From the NCBI GenBank assembly GCA_029262275.1, contig JAJCZS010000007.1, positions 122,785 through 186,784 of the forward strand: 64,000 nt of DNA, given 5' to 3'. This DNA comes from Deltaproteobacteria bacterium. Lineage in GTDB: Bacteria > Desulfobacterota_D > UBA1144 > Nemesobacterales > UBA2774. Of this stretch, positions 10,484 to 42,626 are shown piece after piece; within the stretch, counting starts at the first letter, position 1, and the number at the start of each line of letters is the position of its first letter. The notes beneath the pieces are model-generated. The model had not been told where the DNA came from. It did not search any database and was given only the letters and a program-made list of their open reading frames with translations. Both the position numbers and the translations under genes were made by a program.

Positions 10484-11140
10484 TTATAACCCCCTCTCCC
10501 CTAAGGTACTTTCTTTTTGAGAGGTTAAAATACCCTCAGAAATCATTGAAAATACCTCCTCCGCTATTTCTCCCGCAGTCATATCTTTTGGATAATAAGA
10601 CATTACTGATCCCACCAATCCAAAGATAATAAGAGCCATAAGCTCAGTATTTGCAGGTCGAAACGATCCTTCTTTAATACCTTTTTCTAAAATTTTTCTG
10701 TATAATTTGATCCTTCTATGTCTCCAACGCTCTGTGAAATCGAAGTGTTCTCTAATAAGACGAGTTTCATCTCTGGTTAAAATCCGTAGCACGTCCCTAT
10801 TTTGAAAATAGAACTGGAAAATGAGAATAAGAACCTTTTTTAATTTCTGAGGGGCTGGGTCATTTTTTTCTATCTCTTTAACTAGAATTGATTCTATTGT
10901 TTCGTGAGTATGCTCTAAAATTCCGAGATATAAATTCTCTTTGGATTCAAAGTATAGATAGATCGTACCCTTAGCTACTCCAACCTCTTCAGCTATTTGA
11001 TCCATTGTGACATCGTGGTAGGTCTTTTGAGAAAACAGGTTAGCCGCCGCTTTCATAATGTCTTCTTTGCGGCTGTTTGCTCTGCCCCTTTTCTTAGTTG
11101 GGACAGCTTTTTTGTTCATCAGTTTTTGTGGTTTAGCCAT
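10484..11140 (-). CDS. TetR/AcrR-family transcriptional regulator
   Basis: One-component repressor of 218 aa. A lysine-rich N-terminal arm precedes the DNA-binding helix-turn-helix 'VTMDQIAEEVGVAKGTIYLY' followed by FESKENL (about residues 43-70), the family hallmark. The C-terminal helical domain should bind an unknown ligand. It is first in an apparent operon with the aminotransferase. Its own promoter carries a 14-bp palindrome at the predicted transcript start, strongly implying autorepression. Ligand unknown. Confidence 0.95.
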   Translation of the reverse strand: MAKPQKLMNKKAVPTKKRGRANSRKEDIMKAAANLFSQKTYHDVTMDQIAEEVGVAKGTIYLYFESKENLYLGILEHTHETIESILVKEIEKNDPAPQKLKKVLILIFQFYFQNRDVLRILTRDETRLIREHFDFTERWRHRRIKLYRKILEKGIKEGSFRPANTELMALIIFGLVGSVMSYYPKDMTAGEIAEEVFSMISEGILTSQKESTLGERGL

Positions 11141-11167
11141 TTTTTTAACCCATCACGGTTTAATTGA

Positions 11168-11181
11168 ACTGACTAGTCAGT
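11168..11181. promoter_or_regulatory. Palindromic TetR-type operator
   Basis: ACTGACTAGTCAGT is a perfect 14-bp palindrome 27 nt upstream of the tetR-like ATG. TGACTAGTCA cores of this kind are common in AcrR/TetR operators. It covers the predicted +1 region of the promoter at 11189-11217, a position suited to steric autorepression. Confidence 0.8.
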
Positions 11182-11188
11182 CATTGGA

Positions 11189-11217
11189 ATAATATTATAA
11201 CTAAAATTCTTTGTCAA
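11189..11217 (-). promoter_or_regulatory. Sigma-70-type promoter of the TetR/aminotransferase operon
   Basis: On the minus strand, TTGACA (11217-11212), a 17-nt spacer and TATTAT (11194-11189) form a consensus -35 and near-consensus -10 at ideal spacing. The transcript start should fall at about 11182, immediately beside the operator palindrome. Confidence 0.8.
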
Positions 11218-11269
11218 GTATTTTTTTTGCATTCGATAAAATGATTAGGATGTTAATTTTTTGTTGCAA

Positions 11270-11296
11270 TTGAAAAAATCTTAATGATACTATAAT
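11270..11296 (+). promoter_or_regulatory. Candidate promoter of the P460-like lipoprotein gene
   Basis: A perfect -10 TATAAT (11291-11296) has a possible -35 TTGAAA (11270-11275) at a short 15-nt spacer. It lies 28 nt before the ATG and just upstream of GGAGG. The -10 is convincing, the -35 is not. Confidence 0.5.
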
Positions 11297-11324
11297 GATC
11301 ACAAAATAAGTCGGAGGTACACAA

Positions 11325-11780
11325 ATGAAAAGCTTAGCAATACTACTTCTATTAACTGTATCAGTTTCATTTCTATACACAGGTTGCAAGCAAGCAGATG
11401 ATGTTGTTGAAGAATCAGAGCAAACGCATGAGCAGTCTGAAAAAGAGTTTGACGAGAATATATCTAAGAAAGTAGCTCCAGAAGTCTGGGGTCTGATTCA
11501 GACAGAGAATTACAAGCTTAATTGGAAAAACTGGCCTGATAAGAAGGATATATATGTCAATTCAGTAGCCTTTGAAGCAATTGAAAGCCGTGAGACAGAG
11601 TTTCCGGTAGGTTCAACAATAGTTAGGGAAAAATACTCTACCGATGGGAATCTAGAGAAGGTAGCGGTTGCATCTAGAATAGGTGGAAACGAAAAAACCG
11701 ACGGTTGGTTCTCTGCTGATTATACTCCTGATGGAGAATTAATAAGAGTAAACAAGAACGTAGTTAATATAAGGCCATAA
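11325..11780 (+). CDS. Lipoprotein with cytochrome P460-like domain lacking the heme motif
   Basis: Predicted lipoprotein of 151 aa with lipobox 'YTGC' near residue 20, an acidic linker, then a domain with 'DIYVNSVAFEAIE', 'FPVGSTIVREKY' and 'GWFSADYTPDGELI'. This order (Y-V-N-x-x-A, F-P-x-G-x-x-I-V-x-E, W-F-x-x-x-Y-x-P-D-G) resembles the cytochrome P460 family as I recall it. The C-terminal C-x-x-C-H that would attach heme is absent, since the protein stops about 15 residues after 'PDGEL'. So it is either a heme-free relative or a different fold. GGAGG sits 7 nt before the ATG. It stands alone. Confidence 0.6.
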   Translation: MKSLAILLLLTVSVSFLYTGCKQADDVVEESEQTHEQSEKEFDENISKKVAPEVWGLIQTENYKLNWKNWPDKKDIYVNSVAFEAIESRETEFPVGSTIVREKYSTDGNLEKVAVASRIGGNEKTDGWFSADYTPDGELIRVNKNVVNIRP

Positions 11781-11964: not shown

Positions 11965-13683
11965 ATGAATAATAAGAAAACTATCTTTTCTTTGCTTCTT
12001 AAATATAAATATTCCTTCCTAGCAGGTTTGATTGCTCTAACATTGGTAGATCTATGCCAATTGTCTATACCGCTAATTATAGAAAGGGTGATAGACGCTC
12101 TTACTCTAGAGAATGCTACTATCAGCGATATCTCCAAATATGGTCTTTATATGCTGATCATAGCTATAACCATGTCAGTTTTTAGGTTCTTTTGGAGATA
12201 CTTCATCATGGGTGCTGCCAGAAAGATAGAGCAGTCGCTGAGAAATGAATTTTTTGCCCATCTACAAAGCCTCAATTTTGATTTCTTTTCAGAAAAAAAG
12301 GTTGGTGATCTAATGGCTCACACCGTAAATGATGTTGAGACTCTCAAATTTGCATGTGGACTTGGAGTTTTGGTTGCTTACGACGGAATATTTCTCTTAA
12401 TATTCATTTTTGGAGCGATGTTATATATATCTCCTCAGCTAACTTTGTATGCTTTCATCCCGTTTCCGATACTTGCAGTTGTTATATATATTTTTGGAAG
12501 AATGATCGAGAAGAGGTTTCAAAAGGTACAGGACTCTTTCTCGGAACTCACAGAGAGCGCAAGAGAGTCCATATCGGGAATTAAAGTAGTAAAGGCATTT
12601 GTCAGACAGGACCAAGAGTTAAAGGATTTTGCAGAGTCTAGCGGCAACTACTTAGATAAAAATCTGAGCTTAATAAAAATATGGGGAGTCTATCAACCCA
12701 TTATTACTTTTGCTGCAGCCTCTGCTACAGCAATTTTCTTGTGGCTTGGGGGGATCAAAACAATTACCCTGGACATAACATTGGGGAATTTTGCGGCTAT
12801 TTTGGTTTATTTGACTATGCTCACATGGCCCATGATGGCCATGGGATGGGCGGTCGACATTATAAAAAGAGGAAATGCTTCACTAAACAGAATAAACGCT
12901 GTTTTGGCCAACAAACCAAAATCATTATCAGAGCCACATGCAATAGATCTTGATATAGAAGGGAATATTGAGTTTAGGGATTTATCCTTTTCTTATAATG
13001 GTAATCCGGCGCTTAAGGATGTTTCCTTACAAATACCTATAGGTCATGCAATGGGTATTACAGGGGGTACAGGCTCGGGGAAAAGTACCTTGTTTCATCT
13101 ACTAACCAGAATAGAGGATTCCTCAGATAATTCTATTTTTATTGACGGTGTGGATGTAAATAAGATTAAAAGAAGCAGTCTTAGAAAAAACGTTATATAC
13201 GTACCTCAAGAAACCACTGTATTTAGTGGAACCATAAAAGACAATATATCTTTTATGGATCCTGAGATCACAGATGAGCAAATTGAGAATGCTGCTAAAA
13301 TTACCGAAATATATGATGAAATAATGCAATTCCCAGGAGGCTTTGAAGCAAGGGTAGGTGAGCGGGGTCTTAGTCTCTCAGGTGGGCAGAGACAGAGGAT
13401 TGCATTAGCAAGAGCAATCCTGCTTCAACCCAGGGTTTTAATACTTGATGATGTTTTCTCCTCCCTTGATCTTAAGACAGAGAGTCTTGTCTTGAGAAAT
13501 TTAAGAAGAGAAATGAAAGGCAGCACCTTACTTGCTATCTCAAGCCGTGTTCCTTCAATAAGCGGCTTTGATTCAATTGCTGTTTTTGATGATGGTAGTT
13601 TGGTTGAGCTTGGAGATCATGAAGAACTCATGGCTAAAAAGGGTATATATCATGGTCTATATAAAATTCAGACATTCGAATAG
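11965..13683 (+). CDS. ABC half-exporter, degenerate-site subunit (MdlA/BmrC-like)
   Basis: Type IV ABC exporter half of 572 aa: six TM helices (about 15-300), then an NBD (about 335-572). Walker A 'GGTGSGKST' (367-375), Q-loop 'VPQET' and signature 'LSGGQ' (481-485) are intact. Walker B is 'LILDD', with Asp496 replacing the catalytic Glu, and the switch His is replaced ('ISSR', Ser527). This is the pattern of the degenerate subunit in heterodimeric exporters such as TM287/288 and BmrCD. No partner is adjacent. The protein at 42627-44708 has the complementary defect and is the best candidate. Substrate unknown: lipid or drug export is likely. It is followed at 9 nt by the GGCT gene. Confidence 0.92.
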   Translation: MNNKKTIFSLLLKYKYSFLAGLIALTLVDLCQLSIPLIIERVIDALTLENATISDISKYGLYMLIIAITMSVFRFFWRYFIMGAARKIEQSLRNEFFAHLQSLNFDFFSEKKVGDLMAHTVNDVETLKFACGLGVLVAYDGIFLLIFIFGAMLYISPQLTLYAFIPFPILAVVIYIFGRMIEKRFQKVQDSFSELTESARESISGIKVVKAFVRQDQELKDFAESSGNYLDKNLSLIKIWGVYQPIITFAAASATAIFLWLGGIKTITLDITLGNFAAILVYLTMLTWPMMAMGWAVDIIKRGNASLNRINAVLANKPKSLSEPHAIDLDIEGNIEFRDLSFSYNGNPALKDVSLQIPIGHAMGITGGTGSGKSTLFHLLTRIEDSSDNSIFIDGVDVNKIKRSSLRKNVIYVPQETTVFSGTIKDNISFMDPEITDEQIENAAKITEIYDEIMQFPGGFEARVGERGLSLSGGQRQRIALARAILLQPRVLILDDVFSSLDLKTESLVLRNLRREMKGSTLLAISSRVPSISGFDSIAVFDDGSLVELGDHEELMAKKGIYHGLYKIQTFE

Positions 13684-13692
13684 AATATATCC

Positions 13693-14169
13693 ATGGGTAA
13701 TGTAAAAATAGATAAAAGGACACTGGTCTCTTACTTTGCATACGGCTCCAATATGAACCCTGACAGGATGAGGGAAAGAGAGGTTGTGTTTTATTCTAGA
13801 GAGCTTTTAATACTTTCCGGATGGAGCCTGAAGTTTCATAAGATTACTATTCAACCAAACAAAGGAGCTGCAAACATTGTTCCAGACGAAAGTGGGGCTG
13901 TTCAAGGAATACTCTATAAAGTTACAATGGAAGGTATAAGTAATCTAGATAAGTTCGAGCATTATCCGATAGAATACGACAGAGTATCTCTAAGAGTTCC
14001 ATTTGATGAAGATGATGAGAAGCTGATTCTGACTTATATTGCCCATCCACACAAAACCAGGGAGGGTCTAAAACCATCAAGGTCTTACTTAGAACATTTA
14101 CTTGCTGCAGAGGACATTCTTTCAGAGGATTACTACAATCAACTAAAAGAAGTTGAAACATTGGATTAA
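13693..14169 (+). CDS. Gamma-glutamylcyclotransferase (GGCT/AIG2-like) family protein
   Basis: 158-aa protein of the BtrG/GGCT-like fold. It has the substrate-binding loop 'YFAYGSNMNPDRM' (about residues 14-26) and the presumed catalytic Glu in 'LDKFEHYP'. Family enzymes form 5-oxoproline from gamma-glutamyl amines or peptides, but many members have other or unknown substrates. There is no Shine-Dalgarno. TAGAAT at 13681-13686 overlaps the stop of the ABC gene and lies 6 nt before the ATG, so either coupling to the ABC gene or a leaderless start is possible. Confidence 0.88.
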   Translation: MGNVKIDKRTLVSYFAYGSNMNPDRMREREVVFYSRELLILSGWSLKFHKITIQPNKGAANIVPDESGAVQGILYKVTMEGISNLDKFEHYPIEYDRVSLRVPFDEDDEKLILTYIAHPHKTREGLKPSRSYLEHLLAAEDILSEDYYNQLKEVETLD

Positions 14170-25124: not shown

Positions 25125-27164
25125 ATGGCAGCAAAGCCCAAAAAGAAGAAAGACAAGTTAGAGCAATTAATTATTAACACTATCAGGACTCTATCAATGG
25201 ATGCGGTTCAAAAAGCTAATTCAGGACATCCTGGAACCCCAATGTCTATGGCTCCTGTAGCCTATACGATCTGGGATAAGTTTATGAATTTTAATCCCCA
25301 AAATCCTGACTGGCCAAACCGTGACCGTTTTGTTCTATCTGCAGGCCATGCTTCTATGCTCCTATACAGCTTGTTGCATGTGACGGGCTATGATGTTTCA
25401 CTAAATGATATCAAAACTTTCCGCCAGCTTCATAGCAAATGTGCTGGGCATCCCGAATACGGAATGGCTCCAGGTATTGAAACTACCACAGGTCCACTGG
25501 GACAAGGCTATGCGACTTCTGTTGGAATGGCCATTGCTGAGAAGTGGTTGGCAAAGCATTTTAACCGCCCTGGACACAAGATAATCGACTACAGTATTTT
25601 TGCACTAGGAGGAGACGGCTGTATGATGGAGGGAATCTCCAGTGAAGCAGCCTCCCTTGCGGGTCATTTGGGCCTGAGCAATCTTGTGTGGATGTACGAT
25701 AACAATCACATAACCATTGAAGGTCACACAGATCTTGCTTTTAGTGAGGACGTAGCAGCCAGGTTCATGGGCTACAACTGGCATGTACAGCGCGTTGGAG
25801 ACGCAAATAACTTAGAGCTCTTACAAGAAGCGCTTGGTAGAGCAAAAAAGGAGGAAAATCAGCCCTCTTTAATAATAGTAGACAGTGAAATAGGTTTTGG
25901 GAGTCCTAATAAACAGGACACTCCAGCCGCACATGGTGAGCCTCTTGGAGAGGATGAGATTATAAAAACAAAGATTAATTATGGATGGGATCCGAAAAAG
26001 AAATTTTATGTTCCAAACGAAGTAAAAGACTACAGAAAACAAATTCTAAAAAGGGGTAAAAATGACGAGGATAAGTGGAACAAGATATTTTCCAAGTACG
26101 CCTCTAAGTACCCGGATTTAGCTAGACAGTTTGAAATGATGGAAGATCGTAGAATGCCACAAGGCTGGGAGAAGTGCTTACCAACTTTCCCTGCAGACCC
26201 AAAAGGGCCTGCTACCAGAACCTCTAACGGTAAGATACTAAACGCCATTGGTAAGGATATTCCATGGTTACTAGGCGGCGCAGGTGATGTGGGGTCTTCA
26301 ACTAAAACCTACCTAGACGATGCCAGCAGTTTTGAAAAAAACGCCTACGACGGAAGAAATTTCCACTTTGGGATTAGAGAAGCTGCTATGGCGGCGGTGT
26401 CAAACGGTATGGTTCTGAGCAAGCTAAGGGCCTATGCATCATGTTATTTTGTGTTTTCAGATTATCTTAAAGCGCCTCTTCGGCTGTCCTGTTTAATGAA
26501 AAATCCTGTCATTTATATATTTACTCATGATAGTATAGGTCTTGGAGAAGATGGGCCTACTCATCAGCCGATTGAACACCTTGCCGCGCTCAGAGGAGTG
26601 CCCAATCTTGACGTTATAAGGCCTGCTGATGCAAATGAGCTTAGCGTTTTGTGGAAGCATGTTATGGAAGTCAAAGATAGGACTATTGCGTTGATTCTTA
26701 CCCGCCAGAATGTTCCTACCTTCGATAGGAGCAAATATGCTCCTGCCAAGGGAGCTTTGAGAGGTGCCTATATTCTTGCTGACTGTAAAGGGAAGCCCGA
26801 TTTAATACTCATCGGAACGGGGTCTGAGGTTCAGCTGTGTCTGGGCGCATATGAAAGACTTACAAAAGAGGGAGTTAAAGTCCGGGTAGTCAGTATGCCT
26901 TGCTGGGAGCTGTTTGATAAGCAGAGCTCTCAATATCAGGAAAAGGTTTTGCCCGATTCAGTTAGAGCAAGAGTATCTGTTGAAGCCGGAGCCACTTTGG
27001 GATGGCAAAAATATGTTGGGCTTCATGATAAGGGTACGTCGATAGGTGTAGATACTTTCGGAGAATCGGCCCCTATTGCAGATCTGTGGCCTGAGTTTGG
27101 ATTTACAGTTAATAATGTTGCAGCTAAAGCTAGGCAAACTCTTAAGAAAAATAGAAAAAAATAA
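25125..27164 (+). CDS. tkt: Transketolase
   Basis: Thiamine-diphosphate enzyme moving two-carbon ketol units between pentose phosphate and glycolytic sugars. 679 aa, full length. TPP/Mg2+ motif 'GDGCMMEGISSEAASLAG', substrate His in 'NSGHPGTPMSMAP' and 'SAGHASMLLYSLLH', and pyrimidine-domain 'FVFSDYLKAPLRLSCL' and 'DSIGLGEDGPTHQPIEHL' all fit the microbial family. A Lys-rich N-terminal tail (AAKPKKKKDK) precedes the domain. AAGGAG is well placed. It is first in a run of eight co-directional genes, with tal-pgi 42 nt downstream. Confidence 0.97.
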   Translation: MAAKPKKKKDKLEQLIINTIRTLSMDAVQKANSGHPGTPMSMAPVAYTIWDKFMNFNPQNPDWPNRDRFVLSAGHASMLLYSLLHVTGYDVSLNDIKTFRQLHSKCAGHPEYGMAPGIETTTGPLGQGYATSVGMAIAEKWLAKHFNRPGHKIIDYSIFALGGDGCMMEGISSEAASLAGHLGLSNLVWMYDNNHITIEGHTDLAFSEDVAARFMGYNWHVQRVGDANNLELLQEALGRAKKEENQPSLIIVDSEIGFGSPNKQDTPAAHGEPLGEDEIIKTKINYGWDPKKKFYVPNEVKDYRKQILKRGKNDEDKWNKIFSKYASKYPDLARQFEMMEDRRMPQGWEKCLPTFPADPKGPATRTSNGKILNAIGKDIPWLLGGAGDVGSSTKTYLDDASSFEKNAYDGRNFHFGIREAAMAAVSNGMVLSKLRAYASCYFVFSDYLKAPLRLSCLMKNPVIYIFTHDSIGLGEDGPTHQPIEHLAALRGVPNLDVIRPADANELSVLWKHVMEVKDRTIALILTRQNVPTFDRSKYAPAKGALRGAYILADCKGKPDLILIGTGSEVQLCLGAYERLTKEGVKVRVVSMPCWELFDKQSSQYQEKVLPDSVRARVSVEAGATLGWQKYVGLHDKGTSIGVDTFGESAPIADLWPEFGFTVNNVAAKARQTLKKNRKK

Positions 27165-27206
27165 TAACTAGTTATCAAAAAGATAAAACATTTATAGGAG
27201 AACATC

Positions 27207-30035
27207 ATGTCTAAGAACATTAAGGAACTAACCAAGCTGGGACAATCAATTTGGTATGACTACATTAGACGTTCTTTTTTAACTAAGGGAGAACTTAGAG
27301 CTTTAATTGATGAAGGGCTTAGAGGTGAGACTTCAAACCCTTCTATTTTAGAGAAGGCTATTGCCGGTAGTTCCGACTATGATGAAGATTTAACAGCACT
27401 TGTAGAAGAGGATAAATCAGTAAATGAAATATATGAGGCACTAGCACTGAAGGATATTGCTATGGCTGCTGATGATTTTAGAGCTCTTTATGAAGAAACA
27501 GACGGCGGAGATGGGTTTATAAGTTTAGAGGTTAGCCCAACCCTAGCTAACAAAACAAAACAAACGATTAGAGATGCCAAAAGATACTTTGTTGCACTGG
27601 ACAAGCCCAATGTGATGATAAAAATTCCAGCTACTAAAGCGGGTATTCCAGCAATTACAGAGGTAATTGCATCTGGTATCAATGTAAATGTTACGTTGAT
27701 GTTTAGCCTAGATCAGTATAAAGCTGTAGCTGAGGCATATATTAAAGGTCTTGAGAGACTAGCTGAGAATGGTCCTACCGTATTTAAAGGACACACCGTT
27801 GATAAAGTAGCTTCTGTTGCATCCTTTTTTGTGAGCAGGGTAGATAGTGCAGTGGACGCCAAGCTTGATGAAATCGGCAATACTGATCTGAAGGGTAAAA
27901 TTGCTATCGCTAACTCAAAAATAACTTATGAAGAATACAGAAAAGTCTTTAGCGGCCCAAGGTGGAATAAACTTAAAAAATTAGGTGCCAGACCTCAGAG
28001 GGTTCTATGGGCTAGCACTAGTACTAAAAACCCTGCCTATCCTGACACATTGTATGTAGACGAGTTAATTGGGCCAAATACAGTAAATACTGTTCCTCCA
28101 GCCACATATAAGAACTTCAAAGACCATGGAACTCCAAAAACCACGCTTACTAAGGGCGTGAAGCAGGCTCATGCAGATTTAGCAAAACTAAAAAGACTTG
28201 GCATTAAATTAGATGATGTTACTGATTTTCTGCTTAAGGATGGTGTCAAGAAGTTTGCGGCATCCTTTGAGACTTTAATGCAAAGCATTGCCGATAAAAA
28301 GGAGCAGATTACTCAGGGAAAAAAGCCGTATACGGCTAGCTTGGGTAAGCACCAGGCAGCCGTAGATAAGGCGCTTGAAGATATACGCGAGAATAACATA
28401 ATCGAGAAGATCTGGAATTTTGACTATCTGGTTTGGGAGAAGAAATCCACAGAAATAAGTAACCGCCTTGGCTGGCTTCATATACCCGAGGTCATGGCTG
28501 ATGCATTAGCGGGAATAAATGTTGTAGTTAATCAAGTAAGAAAAGAAGGCTATAAAGATTTGCTTCTTTTAGGTATGGGCGGATCAAGTCTTGCAGTTGA
28601 AGTAATAAAGGAAACCTACGGGACTAAGAAAGGCTATCTTAATGTACATGTTCTGGACAGCACTGACCCTGGAATGGTCTTAGAGTATAGACGGAACCTT
28701 GATATGAAAAAAACTCTCTTTGTTGTCTCCACTAAATCAGGTGGTACAGCAGAGACTCTTTCATACATGAAATATTTCTACAACGAGTTGCTAGACGAAG
28801 TTGGTAAAAAAGATGTCGGCAAACACTTTGTAGCAATTACCGACCCTGGTAGTAACTTAGAGAATATTGCCCAGGATTTGAAATTTAGAACTACATTCCT
28901 AAATGATCCAAATATTGGTGGGCGCTACTCTGCGCTATCTTTTGTTGGAATCCCACCTGCAGCTTTTCAGGGTGTTGATGTCCCTCTACTTTTAGAAAGA
29001 GCCATAAAAATGCTTCACAATAACGAAAGCTGCAATTGTGCTGTTGAGGGCGATCACTCAGGCGCGTGGCTTGGAGCAATAATGGGTGAGTTGACCTTGG
29101 CAGGCCACGATAAGGTTACACTTGTAACATCCCCACCTATTCAAGGGTTTGGCTCTTGGGCTGAGCAGTTAATAGCAGAGAGCACAGGAAAGACCGGCAA
29201 AGGAATCCTACCCGTAGACCGAGAGCCTATGGGACCTCCGGAGAATTATGCAAATGACAGACTGTTCGTATATCTCCGACTTGCTGGAGATAGTACATAT
29301 GATAGAAAGGTTAAAGCACTTGAAGAACATGGCCATCCAGTAGTAAGAATTAATTTAGAAGACATTTACGATCTTGGAGGCGAGTTCTTTAGATGGGAAT
29401 TTGCAATAGCTATCGCCGGAAGAATAATTGGAATTCATCCTTTTAATCAGCCTAACGTTGAGGCTGCCAAGATATTGGCTCGCAAGATGATTGTTCAGTA
29501 TCAGGAGAAAGGAAAACTTCCTTATGTAAAACCCACTTTAACAGATAAAGGGATAACCGTTTATTCTGGCTTCAAAGCCAAGAGTGTTGAAGATGCACTT
29601 AAGAAATTCCTTGCCCTTGCTAAAAAAGGTAAGAATGGTGGAAAGGGAAGAAGTTATGTAACCCTACAGGCGTATGTTAAGCCTGATGATAAGACCTATG
29701 AGGCTATGCAGAAATTCCGTAAAAAAGTGCAGGCTAAATATCGCCTAGCTACTACTTCCGGATTTGGTCCACGGTTCTTACATTCAACAGGGCAACTACA
29801 TAAAGGGGATGCCGGTAATGGACTCTTTATACAATTTACTTCCGAGATGCCTGAGGATGCTCCGATTCCAGATGAAGCTGGCAAAAAGGCTTCATCAATG
29901 AGCTTTGGTGTATTGAAGAACGCTCAAGCCCTTGGTGATCGTCAAGCACTTCTCAAAAACAAAAGAAATGTGATAACATTCCACTTAGGTGAAGATGTTG
30001 TAAAAGATATTAACAAATTGACAAGAAGCTTATAG
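27207..30035 (+). CDS. tal-pgi: Bifunctional transaldolase / glucose-6-phosphate isomerase
   Basis: Natural fusion of 942 aa. Residues 1 to about 365 are a class I transaldolase ('ETSNPSILEKAI', Schiff-base Lys in 'VMIKIPATKAG', 'VNVTLMFSLDQY'). About 375-942 is phosphoglucose isomerase ('LLLGMGGSSLAVEVI', 'VVSTKSGGTAETLSY', 'PNIGGRYSALSFVG', 'QLIAESTGKTGKGILPV'). Such fusions occur in several bacterial phyla and couple the two enzymes that return fructose 6-phosphate to glucose 6-phosphate, allowing a cyclic pentose phosphate route. The frame is continuous with no sign of frameshift. AGGAG precedes the ATG. The HAD gene follows at 12 nt. Confidence 0.96.
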   Translation: MSKNIKELTKLGQSIWYDYIRRSFLTKGELRALIDEGLRGETSNPSILEKAIAGSSDYDEDLTALVEEDKSVNEIYEALALKDIAMAADDFRALYEETDGGDGFISLEVSPTLANKTKQTIRDAKRYFVALDKPNVMIKIPATKAGIPAITEVIASGINVNVTLMFSLDQYKAVAEAYIKGLERLAENGPTVFKGHTVDKVASVASFFVSRVDSAVDAKLDEIGNTDLKGKIAIANSKITYEEYRKVFSGPRWNKLKKLGARPQRVLWASTSTKNPAYPDTLYVDELIGPNTVNTVPPATYKNFKDHGTPKTTLTKGVKQAHADLAKLKRLGIKLDDVTDFLLKDGVKKFAASFETLMQSIADKKEQITQGKKPYTASLGKHQAAVDKALEDIRENNIIEKIWNFDYLVWEKKSTEISNRLGWLHIPEVMADALAGINVVVNQVRKEGYKDLLLLGMGGSSLAVEVIKETYGTKKGYLNVHVLDSTDPGMVLEYRRNLDMKKTLFVVSTKSGGTAETLSYMKYFYNELLDEVGKKDVGKHFVAITDPGSNLENIAQDLKFRTTFLNDPNIGGRYSALSFVGIPPAAFQGVDVPLLLERAIKMLHNNESCNCAVEGDHSGAWLGAIMGELTLAGHDKVTLVTSPPIQGFGSWAEQLIAESTGKTGKGILPVDREPMGPPENYANDRLFVYLRLAGDSTYDRKVKALEEHGHPVVRINLEDIYDLGGEFFRWEFAIAIAGRIIGIHPFNQPNVEAAKILARKMIVQYQEKGKLPYVKPTLTDKGITVYSGFKAKSVEDALKKFLALAKKGKNGGKGRSYVTLQAYVKPDDKTYEAMQKFRKKVQAKYRLATTSGFGPRFLHSTGQLHKGDAGNGLFIQFTSEMPEDAPIPDEAGKKASSMSFGVLKNAQALGDRQALLKNKRNVITFHLGEDVVKDINKLTRSL

Positions 30036-30047
30036 AAACTCATACAA

Positions 30048-30803
30048 TTGATTAAAGCAATTATTTTTGATCTAGACGGCACACTTGTGCAGACAGAAGT
30101 TTTAAAGGCAGAGTCTTATGCTAAGGCTGCAGTTGAACTAGATCCTTCTTTGACCGAAGAAAGTGTTGTTGAAGGGTTTAAGGAATTTGTAGGTCTTTCA
30201 CGAAAAGAAGTTGCCAAGGGGCTCCTGAATAAGTTTAACCTAGGGGATCCTGCCTCTAAAAGAATGGCCGAGTTTGATGTTGCAAAACCTTGGCAGGCTT
30301 TTGTCGATATTCGAATGGATGCTTATTTTAAAATGATATCTGATCCCAAAATACTCAAAGAACATTTATGCCCATACAATTTAGCCTTGCTCAAATGGGC
30401 AAGAAGTGAAGGCTACCCAACTGCACTTGGTACTATGTCTCACAGAAGAGAGGCCTACCGCGTACTTGATGTGCTTGATATTAGATCAGAGTTTGATGTA
30501 ATTTCTACTATCCAGGACGTTGAGCACGGCAAACCTGATCCGGAGATATATAATTTGATGTTAGAGGAACTTAGAATCTCAAGCAATGAAGGGGTGGCAG
30601 TGGAGGATTCATCATCGGGAGTTAGAGCGGCCCTTGCTGCAGACGTTAGCTGCATTGCAGTACCTTCCGACTTTACAAGAGTAGGGGTCCATAAATTACC
30701 CCAAGAACCTAATCTGCGTGTTGTGGATAATCTTTCAGATTTGCTTGAGACGGCAAAGAGTTTCATCTCAGAGTTGAACTCAACTAAGGAGACCTCAAAT
30801 TGA
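30048..30803 (+). CDS. HAD-superfamily phosphatase (beta-PGM-like)
   Basis: Haloacid dehalogenase-like hydrolase of 251 aa with motif I 'FDLDGTLVQTE' (D8, D10), motif II Thr/Ser in 'ALGTMSH', Lys in 'VEHGKPDPEIY' and motif IV 'VEDSSSGVRAA'. The helical cap between motifs I and II puts it with beta-phosphoglucomutase or phosphoglycolate-phosphatase types. Substrate unknown, but its place inside the pentose phosphate operon suggests a sugar phosphate. It must start at TTG 30048, because motif I follows at once and no ATG is available. Its stop overlaps the rpiA start as TTGA (30800-30803). Confidence 0.87.
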   Translation: MIKAIIFDLDGTLVQTEVLKAESYAKAAVELDPSLTEESVVEGFKEFVGLSRKEVAKGLLNKFNLGDPASKRMAEFDVAKPWQAFVDIRMDAYFKMISDPKILKEHLCPYNLALLKWARSEGYPTALGTMSHRREAYRVLDVLDIRSEFDVISTIQDVEHGKPDPEIYNLMLEELRISSNEGVAVEDSSSGVRAALAADVSCIAVPSDFTRVGVHKLPQEPNLRVVDNLSDLLETAKSFISELNSTKETSN

Positions 30804-31516
30804 CCTCAAACAACGGAGTTAGCTTGCAGGACCGCTTAAAGAAGGAGGCCGGAATAAGCGCTGTGGATTTTGTAGAGTCGGGGATGATTTTGGGGCTTGG
30901 CACAGGAAGTACTACCCGTTTTGCGCTCGAGGAAATAGGGCGCAGATTTAAAGAGGGGAGATTAAAAGATATAGTAGGAATATGCAGTTCAATTCAGACT
31001 GAAAATAGGGCCAAAGATCTTGGAATTCCAATTACGACTTTTGATGAAAAACAGGAGCTAGATCTTACAATAGACGGAGCAGATGAAGTCGACCCTCAGC
31101 TCAATTTGATTAAAGGCGGAGGCGGAGCGCTCCTTAGAGAAAAAGTTCTGGCTCAATCAAGTAAACGAAATATTATGATTGTGGATGAAAGCAAGCTTTC
31201 CCCAAAACTGGGCACCCACTTTGCGGTACCAATAGAAGTAATCCCCTTTTCGTGGAAGCCCGTATCGGTATTTTTAAAATCACTGGGTGCAGATCCCGTA
31301 CTTAGAATTAAGGATGATGGAGATATTTATACAACGGATCAAGCCAATTATATCTTGGATTCAAATTTTGGTCCTATATCAAATTTAGAAGAGCTAGCGC
31401 AAAAATTAGGTCAAAAAGCTGGTATAGCAGAGTTTGGATTATTTTTAGGAACGGCAACAGAGGTAATAGTTGCTACCTCAAATGGAATAAGATATCAAAA
31501 AAGAAACGATTCATAA
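30800..31516 (+). CDS. rpiA: Ribose-5-phosphate isomerase A
   Basis: Interconverts ribose 5-phosphate and ribulose 5-phosphate. 238 aa with 'GLGTGSTTRFALEEIG' (phosphate loop), 'TIDGADEVDPQLNLIKGGGG' (catalytic Asp and substrate loop) and 'LLREKVLAQSSKRNIMIVDES' cut into the usual order. The start is TTG 30800, overlapping the HAD stop by 4 nt, with AAGGAG 8 nt upstream, so translation is coupled. rpe follows at 15 nt. Confidence 0.96.
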   Translation: MTSNNGVSLQDRLKKEAGISAVDFVESGMILGLGTGSTTRFALEEIGRRFKEGRLKDIVGICSSIQTENRAKDLGIPITTFDEKQELDLTIDGADEVDPQLNLIKGGGGALLREKVLAQSSKRNIMIVDESKLSPKLGTHFAVPIEVIPFSWKPVSVFLKSLGADPVLRIKDDGDIYTTDQANYILDSNFGPISNLEELAQKLGQKAGIAEFGLFLGTATEVIVATSNGIRYQKRNDS

Positions 31517-31531
31517 AGGTAGAGCGTATAT

Positions 31532-32188
31532 ATGATAGTAATAGAACCTTCAATATTATCTGCAGATTTTACAAAATTGGGCGAAGCAGTAATTGATGCT
31601 CAAAACGCAGGCGTGCCAGGAATACAAATTGATGTAATGGATGGGCGTTTTGTTCCTAACATAAATTTTGGCCCTGGAGTTGTAGCGGCGATAAGGCCAA
31701 TTACAGATTTATTCTTGGATGTGCATTTAATGATAGTAGAGCCAGAGAAATACATAGAGGATTTTGTTAAAGCTGGGGCTGATCAGATCATTGTTCATCA
31801 AGAGACCTGTCCTCATTTACACAGAACGCTTCAATCAATAAGGGAGCATGGTATTAAGTCGGGAGTTACCCTAAATCCTGCAACCCCTCCAGATATGATA
31901 GAAGATGTGCTTGAACTCTCAGACTTTGTTCAGGTAATGGGAGTAAACCCGGGTTTTGGCGGGCAAAAGTTTATTCACAGTCAGCTTGATAAGATCAGAA
32001 CTCTAAAATCTATGATTGAGGAGCGTGGGCTCGATGTTCCTATTGGAATTGACGGTGGTGTTGATACTACTACTGCTCCGTTGATTGCTGAGGCAGGAGC
32101 TACTATTTTGATAGCAGGCTCAAGTGTCTACAATAAAAAAGGCTCAGTTAAAGAAAATGTAGAAGCTCTCTTAAAGAGCGTGCAGTAA
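31532..32188 (+). CDS. rpe: Ribulose-phosphate 3-epimerase
   Basis: TIM-barrel epimerase converting ribulose 5-phosphate to xylulose 5-phosphate. 218 aa with 'EPSILSADFTKLGEAV', metal/catalytic residues in 'IDVMDGRFVPNINFGP' and 'DVHLMIVEPE', 'QVMGVNPGFGGQKFI' and 'IGIDGGVDTTTAPLIAEAGA'. All catalytic Asp/His are present. AAGGTAG precedes the ATG. Confidence 0.97.
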   Translation: MIVIEPSILSADFTKLGEAVIDAQNAGVPGIQIDVMDGRFVPNINFGPGVVAAIRPITDLFLDVHLMIVEPEKYIEDFVKAGADQIIVHQETCPHLHRTLQSIREHGIKSGVTLNPATPPDMIEDVLELSDFVQVMGVNPGFGGQKFIHSQLDKIRTLKSMIEERGLDVPIGIDGGVDTTTAPLIAEAGATILIAGSSVYNKKGSVKENVEALLKSVQ

Positions 32189-32261
32189 GATAGAATTGGT
32201 GATATGATAGAAATAGGGTTTATATTTCATAAAACACAAATAACATTTTAAGGAGGGCAGT

Positions 32262-33167
32262 ATGAAAATTGGAATGATTGGTCTTGGAAAAATGGGTGGA
32301 AACATGACGGAGCGCTTGCTTCGTGATAAGCATGAGGTAGTTGTTTACAACCTTACACAAGAGCCTATAGATGAGGCGGCAAAGAAGGGAGCAATACCTG
32401 CAAAATCAGTTGCAGACTTAGTTAAGAAACTTCCTAAGCCTAAGATTGTATGGCTTATGGTTCCTGCTGGTAAACCAGTGGATCAGAACATAAGAGAACT
32501 CAAGAAATATCTAAAAAAAGGCGACATTATAATAGATGGTGGTAATTCTGAGTGGCAGGATTCTCAGAAAAGAGCCAAATCGCTTAAATCAAGCGGCATT
32601 AAATACATAGACTGCGGAGTGAGTGGTGGTGTCTGGGGACTTAAAGAGGGTTACTGTTTAATGTACGGCGGGGATAAAGCAACCTGTGATAAAGCAGAGC
32701 CAATTTTTAAAACTCTTGCTCCTAAGAACGGTTATTTGTACTGCGGAAAAGAGGGTTCAGGTCACTATGTGAAGATGGTTCATAACGGCATTGAATACGG
32801 AATGCTCCAGGCCTATGCTGAAGGCTATGCAGTTCTTCAAAGCTCTGAGTTCGATCTTGATCTCCGTGCTATTAGTAAAGTTTGGCAGTACGGAAGCGTT
32901 ATCCGCTCATGGATACTCGAGCTTGCGGAGAGAGTGTTTAAAGCTGATCCTACACTTGATGATCTTGACCCATATGTATGGGACAGTGGTGAGGGACGTT
33001 GGACGGTAGAAGCAGCATTGCGTCAAAATGTTCCGGCCCCTATTATTACAGCCTCACTTCTTGCAAGGATTGCATCTAGAGATACAGATTCATTCTCTAT
33101 GAAAACTATTGCAGCACTCAGGAATCAGTTCGGCGGCCATGCAGTTAAAAAGAAATCAGACGATTAA
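32262..33167 (+). CDS. gnd: 6-phosphogluconate dehydrogenase (decarboxylating), short form
   Basis: Oxidatively decarboxylates 6-phosphogluconate to ribulose 5-phosphate. At 301 aa it is the short (GntZ/YqeC) type rather than the 470-aa E. coli type. It has 'MIGLGKMGGNMTERL', the substrate motif 'DCGVSGGVWGLKEGYCLMYGG' in two parts and the catalytic Lys in 'HYVKMVHNGIEYGM'. After strand 2 the sequence is Y-N-L-T rather than the N-R-T that grips the NADP 2'-phosphate, so NAD+ use is plausible. A strong AAGGAGGG precedes the ATG. It lies 73 nt after rpe and 45 nt before zwf. Confidence 0.94.
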   Translation: MKIGMIGLGKMGGNMTERLLRDKHEVVVYNLTQEPIDEAAKKGAIPAKSVADLVKKLPKPKIVWLMVPAGKPVDQNIRELKKYLKKGDIIIDGGNSEWQDSQKRAKSLKSSGIKYIDCGVSGGVWGLKEGYCLMYGGDKATCDKAEPIFKTLAPKNGYLYCGKEGSGHYVKMVHNGIEYGMLQAYAEGYAVLQSSEFDLDLRAISKVWQYGSVIRSWILELAERVFKADPTLDDLDPYVWDSGEGRWTVEAALRQNVPAPIITASLLARIASRDTDSFSMKTIAALRNQFGGHAVKKKSDD

Positions 33168-33212
33168 GCCGTTAGAGAGATATGTAAATAATAATTAGTG
33201 AGGGGTGTTTAA

Positions 33213-34748
33213 ATGGCACAAGAGAACAATTGCGTAATTGTTATATTTGGAGCTTCGGGAGATTTAACTAAAAGAAAGTTAATGCCTGCGATATATGCTC
33301 TATATCGTCAGAAACTGCTCCCAAAGAACTTTGCAATATTGGGTACCAGTCGGTCCCCATATTCAGATGAAGCATTCCGCAAAAAAATAGTTAGCGATAT
33401 AAAAACTTATGCCAAGCTTAAAAGGGCAGACCAAAAGGACCTTGTGTCTTTTTCAAAACATCTCTACTATCAGGCTCTTGATGCCACTGATATAAACCAT
33501 TATAAAGGTTTGAAAGATAAATTAGGGACAATTGATAATAAACTTAAGATAGGTGGAAACTATATCTACTACCTCTCAACCTCACCCAGCTTATACACCT
33601 CGATTGCAAATAACCTTGGAAAAACAGGTCTACAGATAGAGGGTGCAAACTCTTCCTGGAAGCGCATAATTGTCGAGAAGCCTTTTGGCAGAGACTTAAA
33701 GTCAGCCAAGGCTTTAAACCGAGATCTTCAAAGCATATTTGATGAGGATCAAATTTACAGAATCGACCATTATCTTGGTAAAGAAACTGTACAGGATATT
33801 TTTGCTCTGCGTTTCGCAAACGGTATCTTCGAACCACTATGGAATAGAAATTATGTAAGCCACGTTGAGATTACTGCTGCTGAATCGATAGGAGTAGAAG
33901 AGCGGGGTGGATACTATGACCATTACGGTGCTATGAGGGATATGATACAAAACCATTTGCTTCAGGTGTTGGGAACAATAGCTATTGAGCCTCCGTCATT
34001 TTTTAATGCAACTGATGTGCGTAATGAAAGCGTGAAGGTTTTTGAATCTCTACGACCCATTAAGACAAGTGAAGTTAAAAAATATGCTGTACAAGGACAG
34101 TACGTTGCATCTAAAATAAAGGGCCAAGAAGTCCTTGGTTACAGGCAAGAAAAAGATGTAGCCCCTGATTCCCGTACCGCTACATTCGTTGCCCTTAAAT
34201 TATATGTAGACAATTGGCGCTGGGGCGATGTGCCGTTTTACATCCGCACCGGGAAATATCTACCTACACGTGTTACAGAAGTTGTAGTTCATTTTAAAAA
34301 GACACCTCATCATTTGTTTACTAAGACAGAGTTATGTGAGGCTACTCCTAATCAGTTGATTATAAGAATTCAGCCCGATGAAGGGATCCTGCTTAAATTG
34401 GGAATGAAAAAACCAGGCGCCGGATTTGATATTAAAGAAGTAGGAATGGATTTTCATTATTCTGATCTTGCTGATGCATATATCCCTGAGGCCTATGAGC
34501 GTCTCATCTTGGACTGCATTTTGGGTGATGCCACTCACTATGCTAGGGCTGATGCTGTTGAGGCATGCTGGAAGTTTGTTGATCCTATACTCAAGGCTTG
34601 GGAACGTAACGATAAGATAAAAATGTACGGCTACCCGGCAGGTACTTGGGGACCACCAGAGGCATCTAAGCTTTTTGGTGATCCTAGCCAAGACTGGCGC
34701 TATCCATGCAAAAACTTATCGAATGATGGTGAGTACTGCGAGCTCTAG
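33213..34748 (+). CDS. zwf: Glucose-6-phosphate 1-dehydrogenase
   Basis: First enzyme of the oxidative pentose phosphate pathway, oxidising glucose 6-phosphate to 6-phosphogluconolactone. 511 aa, normal. Nucleotide loop 'IFGASGDLTKRKLMPA', active-site 'RIDHYLGKETVQDI' with catalytic His, 'RWGDVPFYIRTGKYLP' and 'EAYERLILDCILGDATHY' are all present. Its stop is 1 nt before the preferred pgl ATG, so the two are probably translationally coupled. Confidence 0.97.
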   Translation: MAQENNCVIVIFGASGDLTKRKLMPAIYALYRQKLLPKNFAILGTSRSPYSDEAFRKKIVSDIKTYAKLKRADQKDLVSFSKHLYYQALDATDINHYKGLKDKLGTIDNKLKIGGNYIYYLSTSPSLYTSIANNLGKTGLQIEGANSSWKRIIVEKPFGRDLKSAKALNRDLQSIFDEDQIYRIDHYLGKETVQDIFALRFANGIFEPLWNRNYVSHVEITAAESIGVEERGGYYDHYGAMRDMIQNHLLQVLGTIAIEPPSFFNATDVRNESVKVFESLRPIKTSEVKKYAVQGQYVASKIKGQEVLGYRQEKDVAPDSRTATFVALKLYVDNWRWGDVPFYIRTGKYLPTRVTEVVVHFKKTPHHLFTKTELCEATPNQLIIRIQPDEGILLKLGMKKPGAGFDIKEVGMDFHYSDLADAYIPEAYERLILDCILGDATHYARADAVEACWKFVDPILKAWERNDKIKMYGYPAGTWGPPEASKLFGDPSQDWRYPCKNLSNDGEYCEL

Positions 34749-34749
34749 T

Positions 34750-35487
34750 ATGGAAAAGAAATATTATCTATTTGAAGACGGAGCTCAATTAGCAGCCCAG
34801 CTGGCAGTGGATTTTAAAGAAGCAGTCGATAGCAAGGCTCAATCCAATGAGTTTTTAACAGTCGCCCTTTCAGGCGGGCATACCCCTAAAGCATTTTTTG
34901 AGATACTTGCACAGCCACCATATAAGGATGAGATTTCCTGGGAGAATGTAATGTTCTTTTGGGGTGATGAGCGCTGTGTTCCCCCAGATAATGATGAAAG
35001 TAATTTTAAAATGACTAATGCCGCTTTACTATCACATATAGATATTCCAGAGGGAAACGTTCATAGAGTACTAGGAGAAGACCCTCCGACAAATGAAGCA
35101 CTTAGATACGCAAAGATAATAGAAGAAAATGTTTTAGCCGGTAATAGTGGGTTTCCTGCATTCGACTGGATTTTTCTTGGTATGGGGGACGACGGTCATA
35201 CCGCCTCACTTTTTCCTGGGGCATCTAATCTACAAGAAAATGAGAAGATTTGCGTAGTTGCGCAGCATCCTCAAACTGGTCAGAAAAGAGTCAGCATTAC
35301 TTTTCCAGTTATTAACAATGCTAAAAGAGTATCCTTTCTCGTAGCAGGTGAGGCAAAAGCGCCTGTATTTAAGGAAATATTAGAGAAAGGGGCCTCAGAA
35401 AAACTGTCATATCCAGCCTCAATGGTTGATCCTGAAAACGGCATTTTGGAATGGTACCTAGATAAAGCCGCTGCACCTGAGCTTTAA
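34750..35487 (+). CDS. pgl: 6-phosphogluconolactonase
   Basis: Hydrolyses 6-phosphogluconolactone, linking zwf to gnd. 245 aa with 'VALSGGHTPKAFFEIL', 'FFWGDERCVPPDNDESNF' and 'GMGDDGHTASLFPG'. The track ORF starts at 34675 inside zwf. The start M-E-K-K-Y-Y-L-F at ATG 34750 fits the family, though ATG 34723 or 34726 cannot be excluded, and no strong Shine-Dalgarno is present. It is the last gene of the pentose phosphate island. Confidence 0.95.
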   Translation: MEKKYYLFEDGAQLAAQLAVDFKEAVDSKAQSNEFLTVALSGGHTPKAFFEILAQPPYKDEISWENVMFFWGDERCVPPDNDESNFKMTNAALLSHIDIPEGNVHRVLGEDPPTNEALRYAKIIEENVLAGNSGFPAFDWIFLGMGDDGHTASLFPGASNLQENEKICVVAQHPQTGQKRVSITFPVINNAKRVSFLVAGEAKAPVFKEILEKGASEKLSYPASMVDPENGILEWYLDKAAAPEL

Positions 35488-35558
35488 GCCTTTAACTATA
35501 CTAATTATCCATTTCATTGTAACTTTCTAATCACTACTTTTATTTTCAGAGAACTTAA

Positions 35559-36305
35559 ATGCCTGAATACCTTGATCTACTAATTCTATTTGGAGTAGGG
35601 CTCATTGCCGGCGTGATCAACGTTATGGCCGGTGGCGGTTCTAGTCTTACTTTGCCTGCGCTGATTTTCCTCGGACTAGACAGTGCCACTGCAAACGGTA
35701 CAAATAGGGTTGGAATACTGATACAGAGCCTCTTTGCTACTTTATCATTCCGTAAAGAAAAAATAACCGGCTTAAATTTAGGCCTTAGATTAGCCCTCCT
35801 CACAATTCCAGGGGCTGTACTTGGTGCTTTAATTGCAGTCAGAATCAGTGATAAATGGTTTGAGATAATTCTCGGCGTTGTCATGATTGGGGTCATCATA
35901 TCAATGCTTGTTCCTCAGAGCAAAAATTTGGTTACCACAGCTGAAGGACAGAAAACCTGGCTCATATACCCCATTATGTTTGCAATTGGGTTTTATGGTG
36001 GGTTTGTTCAAGTTGGGGTAGGGCTTCTTATAATGGCAGCTCTTTATCATGTACTTAGAATTAATCTCGTATTTGTAAATATGCATAAAGTTTTCATTAC
36101 TTTGATATTTACAATACCTGCGCTACTTATTTTCATGTGGACAGATAATGTAGACTGGCTCCTGGGGTTAGTCCTCGCAGCCGGAAATGGTCTTGGGGGT
36201 TGGTGGGCTGCAAAAATTTCTGTTAAAGGTGGCGAGAAAGTAATCCGCTACGTTATGATTGTAGCAATCTTCATCATCGCGCTAAAACTATTTGGAGTGT
36301 TTTAA
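35559..36305 (+). CDS. TSUP-family (TauE/SafE) membrane transporter
   Basis: Predicted 7-8 TM permease of 248 aa with the TSUP start 'GLIAGVINVMAGGGSSLTLPAL' in two pieces and the repeat-half counterpart 'FYGGFVQVGVGLLIMAAL'. TauE/SafE proteins move sulfite, sulfoacetate or other small anions. Substrate unknown. It follows pgl by 71 nt with no clear terminator between, so read-through is possible. A second TSUP protein is at 52767-53582. Confidence 0.9.
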   Translation: MPEYLDLLILFGVGLIAGVINVMAGGGSSLTLPALIFLGLDSATANGTNRVGILIQSLFATLSFRKEKITGLNLGLRLALLTIPGAVLGALIAVRISDKWFEIILGVVMIGVIISMLVPQSKNLVTTAEGQKTWLIYPIMFAIGFYGGFVQVGVGLLIMAALYHVLRINLVFVNMHKVFITLIFTIPALLIFMWTDNVDWLLGLVLAAGNGLGGWWAAKISVKGGEKVIRYVMIVAIFIIALKLFGVF

Positions 36306-41411: not shown

Positions 41412-42611
41412 TCATACCATCCTTAGACCTTCATCAGACTTTGCAAAGAACACCTTGGCTTCATCACGGAGTTCAGGAAACTTGCTAGTGTAATTAGCTA
41501 ATATTTCGAGTGCTGAGATTTGAGAGAAATCGTCTCTAACAAATGCTACCACGCAGCCTCCATATCCTCCACCGTTAATAGAAGCCCCAAAAACACCTTC
41601 ATATGTGCTAGTTAACTCAAAGAGTAATTTAGTGTGTCTGCTTTCATTTTCATAATTCTCAAGCGTGCTTTTTGAGGATTGATTCATCAAATTGCCTAAC
41701 TCATTCCAGTTGCCATTATCCCAGGCCTTAATACCTTGTTCCACTCGTGCAACCTCAGAGAAATAATGTGTAGCCCAAGGTTTTAAATCATTAGGAAGTC
41801 TTTTTTGTTGTGCAAAATAAACGTCACTTGGTATGTCCGATAGAATTTTTGGGGATTTTAATCCGCCCATAAGTCCAAGAATGCCTGCAGTTTTCTTGCA
41901 TGCTTCAACTCTAGAGTTAAAACCTGAAGTTGTTAACTCACGACTAAGACCTGTGTATAAAATTAGAATTTTGAATTTCTCACTCGCCTCTTGTTTAGGG
42001 TGCTGAGCTACGGTTTTAGATAAAGTATCGATATATAGCATGCAATTTTTTTTGCCATAGACGATTGAGCTCTGATCTAATATTCCATTTTGCAGTCTCA
42101 AATAGTCATTTTCTATCTTTGAATCCAGATCAACAAGCTTTTCTCTAGATGTATAACAGTTATTTAGATAGGAGAGTGCTCTTAGATAAGAAAGTGCCAC
42201 AGATGCTGAAGAGCTCAGTCCGCTTGCAGGCAAAGAGCCTGATATGACTCCAGTAAACCCATACTCAATGGAGTAGTGCTCTTGAATTACCTTAGCTGCC
42301 CCCATGGCATATCTCCCCCAATCGTCTCGCTTTGGGGTCTTTATATTATCTACACTAAATTCCAGAACTCCTGGGTAGTTAGTGCTGTACAAACGAATCT
42401 TTCTCTCATTATTTGGAATAAAAACTAAGAATGATCCTGCATTTATCGTCATTCCCAATACAGGTCCTCCCTGATGGTCCACATGGGCTCCTAGGGGTGA
42501 AATACGGTATGGAGAGAAGATAATATTTAAATCGGCATCAGAGAATTTCTCGCGCCTCTTTAAATATTCGCTAAGCTGCAAAACTTGATCTTCTAAAGTT
42601 GGGAATTCCAT
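41412..42611 (-). CDS. GHMP kinase of galactokinase/galacturonokinase type
   Basis: 399-aa sugar 1-kinase. The N-terminal substrate motif is 'SPYRISPLGAHVDHQGG' instead of the P-G-R-x-N-x-I-G-E-H of GalK. This form, with H-x-D-H-Q-G-G, is what I recall from plant galacturonokinase. ATP loop 'PASGLSSSAS' and C-terminal 'SINGGGYGGCVVAF' complete the fold. It likely phosphorylates C1 of galactose, galacturonate or a related hexose. Neither uridylyltransferase nor epimerase is nearby, so the route is unknown. It is 15 nt after the ABC exporter gene and probably in its operon. Confidence 0.85.
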   Translation of the reverse strand: MEFPTLEDQVLQLSEYLKRREKFSDADLNIIFSPYRISPLGAHVDHQGGPVLGMTINAGSFLVFIPNNERKIRLYSTNYPGVLEFSVDNIKTPKRDDWGRYAMGAAKVIQEHYSIEYGFTGVISGSLPASGLSSSASVALSYLRALSYLNNCYTSREKLVDLDSKIENDYLRLQNGILDQSSIVYGKKNCMLYIDTLSKTVAQHPKQEASEKFKILILYTGLSRELTTSGFNSRVEACKKTAGILGLMGGLKSPKILSDIPSDVYFAQQKRLPNDLKPWATHYFSEVARVEQGIKAWDNGNWNELGNLMNQSSKSTLENYENESRHTKLLFELTSTYEGVFGASINGGGYGGCVVAFVRDDFSQISALEILANYTSKFPELRDEAKVFFAKSDEGLRMV

Positions 42612-42626
42612 ATTATATTTATCGTC

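Follow-up and report, generated by a model that had tools for sequence, protein, structure and literature searches.

Two half-transporter genes lying 29 kb apart in the window (the whole 64,000-nucleotide stretch analysed here), hereafter subunits A and B, very probably encode the partner subunits of a single heterodimeric type IV ABC exporter like BmrCD, TmrAB and TM287/288, whose ancestral A-B(-kinase) run was broken once at the base of the window's family (rough probability, 0.88). A first-pass annotation of the window had proposed such a split heterodimer, and the idea gained support from comparative and modelling results, including an orthologue of B adjoining A in relatives, the lack of any other exporter half in the genome, the trees and the predicted folds. 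The reading is based on sequences, gene order, orthology, conservation and predicted folds, from which we infer the physical dimer, the roles of its ATP sites and their coupling. The more novel feature is the reduced catalytic NBD of subunit B.

Complementary defects in two half-exporters

Both A and B matched PF00664 and PF00005 above the curated cut-offs in profile searches, A by a wide margin. The features of subunit A are as follows.

11965-13683, plus strand: subunit A, degenerate half-exporter (572 aa ORF) with TMD and complete NBD, BmrC/TmrB/TM287-like (domains, motifs, conservation, folds)
13063-13089, plus strand: Walker A of A, GGTGSGKST, residues 367-375 (alignment)
13351-13395, plus strand: X-loop and consensus signature of A, RVGERG-LSLSGGQRQ, residues 463-477, A's share of the consensus ATP site (conservation)
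13438-13470, plus strand: Walker B and D-loop of A, LILDDVFSSLD, residues 492-502, with Asp496 at the catalytic Glu position (alignment, conservation)
13543-13545, plus strand: Ser527 of A at the switch His position (alignment, conservation)

A retains an intact Walker A, Q-loop, X-loop (VGERG) and LSGGQ signature. The two defects that had been read from its sequence, a Walker B ending in L-D-D rather than D-E and a serine for the switch His, were both confirmed by alignment, with Asp496 replacing the catalytic Glu (L-I-L-D495-D496) and Ser527 the His (A-I-S526-S527-R). Given that all 39 Dadabacteria orthologues carry D-D at residues 495/496 and that position 527 is Ser in 31, Asn in seven and Leu in one, never His, these defects are not a matter of chance; the switch His is kept in 55 of 57 outgroup A proteins. 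The gene downstream of A is, as annotated earlier, a GGCT gene (13693-14169, GGCT/AIG2-like, PF06094). It does not adjoin A in G007 or G011, and we rejected it as a functional partner, regarding it as an incidental neighbour.

The second exporter half, with the complementary defect, lies about 29 kb away as had been reported, and it combines an SSGEK signature with Glu608 and His639. The ORF caller placed its start at a TTG (44708), with an ATG at 44699 as the alternative start.

42627-44708, minus strand: subunit B, catalytic half-exporter, TMD with extracytoplasmic insert and reduced NBD, TmrA/BmrD/TM288-like (domains, motifs, folds)
44169-44513, minus strand: about 115 aa inserted between TM helices 1 and 2 of B, residues 66-180, positioned like the BmrD extracellular domain (secondary structure of the model; BmrD among the top folds)
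43191-43217, minus strand: Walker A of B, GLTGSGKTT, residues 498-506 (Lys invariant in 38 of 38)
42966-43070, minus strand: residues 547-581 of B, a short low-confidence remnant at the expected place of the helical subdomain and X-loop (Q-loop-to-signature length; pLDDT under 50)
42942-42965, minus strand: non-consensus signature of B, SISSGEKQ, residues 582-589, B's share of the degenerate site (alignment, conservation)
42885-42887, minus strand: catalytic Glu608 of B (invariant in 38 of 38)
42792-42794, minus strand: switch His639 of B (invariant in 38 of 38)
41412-42611, minus strand: galactokinase-like GHMP kinase, the next gene after B and, in sister families, the last of an A-B-kinase run of three (domain search, gene order)

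The insert is missing from the 1-Mb family f8, where B measures 542-575 aa.

Operonic order in relatives and the split in the window's family

The class comparison covered all 58 Dadabacteria genomes, with about 60 loci read, plus a further set from other phyla. In loci with both genes complete, A was followed directly by B in all seven other class families sampled, and the same order was found in outgroup loci of Desulfobacterota, Hydrothermota, WOR-3, Eisenbacteria and Clostridia. Where operonic, the genes share a strand and are separated usually by a few tens of bases, up to about 200; in one draft (G028), A is cut at the contig start and a short ORF lies in the A-B gap. The search of relatives for a different partner adjoining A, which according to the earlier annotation would have refuted the pairing, therefore returned the orthologue of B.

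Within the class, the split of A and B is confined to the window's family, which comprises 16 genomes of five genera. The three long assemblies place them 28.9 kb (the window, G000), about 33 kb (G007) and about 38 kb (G009) apart, in the same opposed orientation and with largely conserved intervening gene order. Each gene was seen among other genes, its partner not adjoining, in 13 family genomes, and because these are independent assemblies from five genera, an assembly artefact was rejected. The split family formed one clade in both the A and the B tree (SH-aLRT 98 and 99), and this monophyly is consistent with a single split event.

The direction of the rearrangement can be read from a landmark block.

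25125-36305, plus strand: transketolase / transaldolase-PGI / ribose-5-P isomerase / TauE, next to kinase-B-A in sister families but flanked by A and B in the window

Families f6 and f7 have transketolase, transaldolase/PGI, ribose-5-phosphate isomerase and TauE in that order, followed on the other strand by the kinase or an unknown gene, B and A, and in family f5 the A-B pair lies near the same transketolase block. In the window, B and the kinase (41412-44708, minus strand) follow the block in the ancestral orientation, and A lies across it at 11965 (plus strand). This order shows that A moved while B and the kinase stayed. A tblastn search for a remnant of A at the old site beside B returned none, except a paralogous match inside B itself. 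At its new site, A is preceded by a lipoprotein-like gene and a divergent TetR/FadR-like regulator (10484-11780), an order common to many family members, and given this conserved arrangement A may have come under new control.

A second split of the same pair was found in family f13 of another phylum (that of G060), in which families f11 and f12 keep the operon. The two genes lie on different contigs with unrelated flanks at L233, L234 and L236-L239 (G063, G067, G070) and about 5 kb apart at L235 (G064). This split appears to be independent, so that splitting of A and B would be unusual but recurrent. Gene adjacency has served as a hallmark for recognising heterodimers of this type (PMC4997860); the genes of the window's family are not adjacent, and adjacency is a practical search criterion rather than a structural requirement.

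Conservation, trees and predicted folds

The residues expected to form the consensus ATP site are nearly invariant across the class in both proteins. In B, the A-loop Tyr, Walker A Lys, Q-loop Gln, Asp-Glu and switch His are invariant (38/38), as are the X-loop GER and the signature Ser, second Gly and Gln of A (39/39), with two or three exceptions at two further signature positions. The degenerate site has drifted: A has lost the A-loop Tyr in six cases, the Q-loop Gln in two and the switch His in all, and signature positions of B vary. Both genes are under strong purifying selection, with dN/dS of about 0.03-0.04 where calculable, a rough value since synonymous sites are near saturation. The A and B trees gave correlated distances, with coefficients of 0.97 in the split family and 0.98 across 47 taxa, and none of 2000 permutations within the class reached the observed correlation; such a correlation reflects both interaction and the species history that the two genes share.

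Single-chain AlphaFold models of the two subunits, built from alignments of 43-44 sequences (pTM 0.65 and 0.56), were compared with the PDB using Foldseek. The top 11 matches of the A model were BmrC, TmrB or TM287, and the top 30 of the B model were TmrA, BmrD, TM288 or the MsRv1273c/72c B chain. The pair has several features expected of a heterodimeric exporter, namely two TMD plus NBD halves, a half without Glu and His but with a consensus signature, a partner with Glu, His and a non-consensus signature, and the folds of two different subunits.

Many relatives in the superfamily function as homodimers, which counts against the heterodimer reading. A and B could each form homodimers, B being an active pump and A a near-inactive ATP-binding or regulatory protein, as might be supposed from their separation in the window's family and from the presence in B of its own catalytic Glu and His. 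However, the genes are adjacent in all other class families, the complementary defects are held class-wide, the folds match two different subunits of heterodimers, and in a homodimer of B both sites would combine a non-consensus signature with a missing helical subdomain. We therefore consider separate homodimers very unlikely and retain the A-B heterodimer.

Reduced helical subdomain in the catalytic NBD

In type IV exporters, the signature is normally presented by the helical subdomain of the NBD, which also provides one half of the socket that receives the partner's coupling helix. Most of this subdomain, X-loop included, is missing from B throughout the Dadabacteria class, a feature that had gone unremarked in the earlier annotation. 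The interval from the Q-loop Gln to the signature Ser is short in every Dadabacteria B protein compared (38 of 38, 15-39 residues) and longer in all outgroup B proteins (56 of 56, 56-63 residues); it is 56-58 in all 96 A proteins, 57-58 in six canonical exporters and 56-57 in the measurable B proteins of a second phylum, one of which was read as 68 by the automatic pattern. The genome's other ABC ATPases offer a poor control through their Walker A-to-signature distances, as ABC-F proteins differ in the part between Walker A and the Q-loop. The reduction, seen at loci including L044 and L058, is strongest in families f5 (about 15 residues) and f8 (about 22). In the model of the window's B, residues 547-581 (pLDDT under 50) run straight into the signature helix, where the A model has three extra helices. 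Given that the reduction is common to the operonic families, it preceded the A/B split. A full-text literature search of limited scope found no precedent for an ABC transporter NBD without a helical subdomain, which is weak evidence. Because a complete helical subdomain and X-loop are found in A and not in B, the pair is classed as a variant rather than an ordinary member of the heterodimeric exporters. The signature residues Ser584 and Gly586 are invariant among Dadabacteria B proteins, and it follows that the B signature probably still contacts ATP despite the loss.

The missing subdomain might instead mark B as a decaying gene, and residues 547-581 do vary (mean pN 0.22, against 0.10 over the full protein) and have no structure in the predicted fold. 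Such decay is highly improbable given the full-length open frames in the 38 genomes read from eight families, the invariant Glu, His, Walker A Lys, Q-loop Gln and A-loop Tyr, the purifying selection on the gene and its retention in genomes of 0.8-1.1 Mb.

Genome content and co-occurrence

The window's genome (2.48 Mb, 97.5% complete) encodes exactly two PF00664 proteins, A and B, which answers the earlier call to look for another exporter half elsewhere in the genome. The co-occurrence analysis proposed alongside it found both halves in 53 of the 58 class genomes. Four genomes, all drafts of 59-83% completeness, have a single half. One genome of family f4 (G026, 94% complete) has neither. Retention of both A and B in the 0.8-1.1 Mb genomes argues for a core function of the pair.

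Eleven of the 16 family genomes (e.g., G002, G005, G007, and G009; loci L063, L064, and L065 of G007, G009, and G002) also carry a third, canonical exporter of about 600 aa (LDEATS, LSGGQ), which could have become the present partner of A in the family. There is only a slim chance of such an exchange, as this exporter is absent from the window's genome and from three congeners that are at least 90% complete (G001, G003, G004), and the A-B distance correlation inside the family remains as high as given above.

LpxC and LptF/G were absent from all 58 Dadabacteria genomes in searches that found both in the E. coli, Caulobacter and Bacteroides controls, and these searches gave no indication that the class makes lipid A or transports LPS. 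A role of the pair as the lineage's MsbA, a lipid A/LOS flippase, is barely credible and was rejected because the class lacks LpxC and LptF/G; several genomes yielded no type IV exporter besides the pair, but its MsbA scores of 366 and 348 bits fall far below the curated cut-off of 602 bits.

Proposed mechanism and substrate

One hydrolysing and one ATP-holding site are established for the BmrCD and TM287/288 family (PMC7756269, PMC9541285), and by analogy we infer the same division in A-B. The consensus site would be formed by Walker A, Glu608 and His639 of B with the LSGGQ of A and would hydrolyse ATP, and the degenerate site, formed by Walker A, Asp496 and Ser527 of A with the SSGEK of B, would hold ATP at most. 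The degenerate side in Dadabacteria has eroded past the usual point substitutions, B being without most of its helical subdomain. This loss would touch both the degenerate site and one coupling interface, and ATP-driven movement would pass mainly via the complete NBD of A, so that the pump should be unusually one-sided. On balance, we favour a class-wide ABC exporter whose catalytic subunit has shed the helical subdomain and X-loop of its NBD; if it is active, the full subdomain would be dispensable on the degenerate side, and the pump would be a natural one-sided machine with a complete coupling socket in one NBD alone.

The genes around the pair offer a tentative clue to its substrate. The galactokinase-like GHMP kinase follows the A-B pair in several f4 genomes and in f7, and a gene resembling a sugar-1-phosphate nucleotidyltransferase follows it in several f1 and f4 genomes, though not directly in the window. 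In relatives, L047:4537-6545 and L075:6035-8004 show B followed by the kinase and the nucleotidyltransferase-like gene. From these neighbours, our best guess, held with low confidence, is a lipid-linked, sugar-linked or glycoconjugate substrate.

Implications

The degenerate ATP site of asymmetric ABC pumps has been reviewed (PMC7756269). The Dadabacteria proteins bear on its purpose and on how much of each NBD coupling needs. They form a natural series: catalytic residues, the switch His and the opposing NBD's helical subdomain disappear from the degenerate side, residues of the consensus site persist, and the proteins thus provide ready-made test constructs. The split heterodimer, which is well supported, also indicates that searches by gene adjacency (as in PMC4997860) miss real pairs.

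Comparison with known systems

BmrCD (YheI/YheH) of Bacillus subtilis resembles A-B in combining a degenerate with a catalytic half, in carrying an insert between TM1 and TM2 of the catalytic half, and in being among the best folds for both subunits. It differs in that the A-B genes are 29 kb apart, most of the B helical subdomain is missing and the switch position of A is occupied by Ser. In the comparison with TmrAB of Thermus thermophilus, TmrA was the best structural and sequence match of B, and TmrB was among the best of A; TmrA keeps the stretch that B lacks, with 42 residues in the alignment where B has 23. Both chains of TM287/288 of Thermotoga maritima also match A-B, and its subunits divide the defects in the same way. 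The helical subdomain of TM288 is complete, and the TM287 and TM288 genes are adjacent, with consecutive gene numbers. PatAB of Streptococcus pneumoniae is likewise a degenerate heterodimer, with Asp and Gln in PatA and a non-consensus signature in PatB (PMC9541285), and the patA and patB genes are not directly adjacent, one degenerate transposase gene lying between them (PMC4432121). PatAB is thus a non-adjacent degenerate pair like A-B, although a single transposase remnant separates its genes, whereas 29 kb and dozens of genes separate those of the window.
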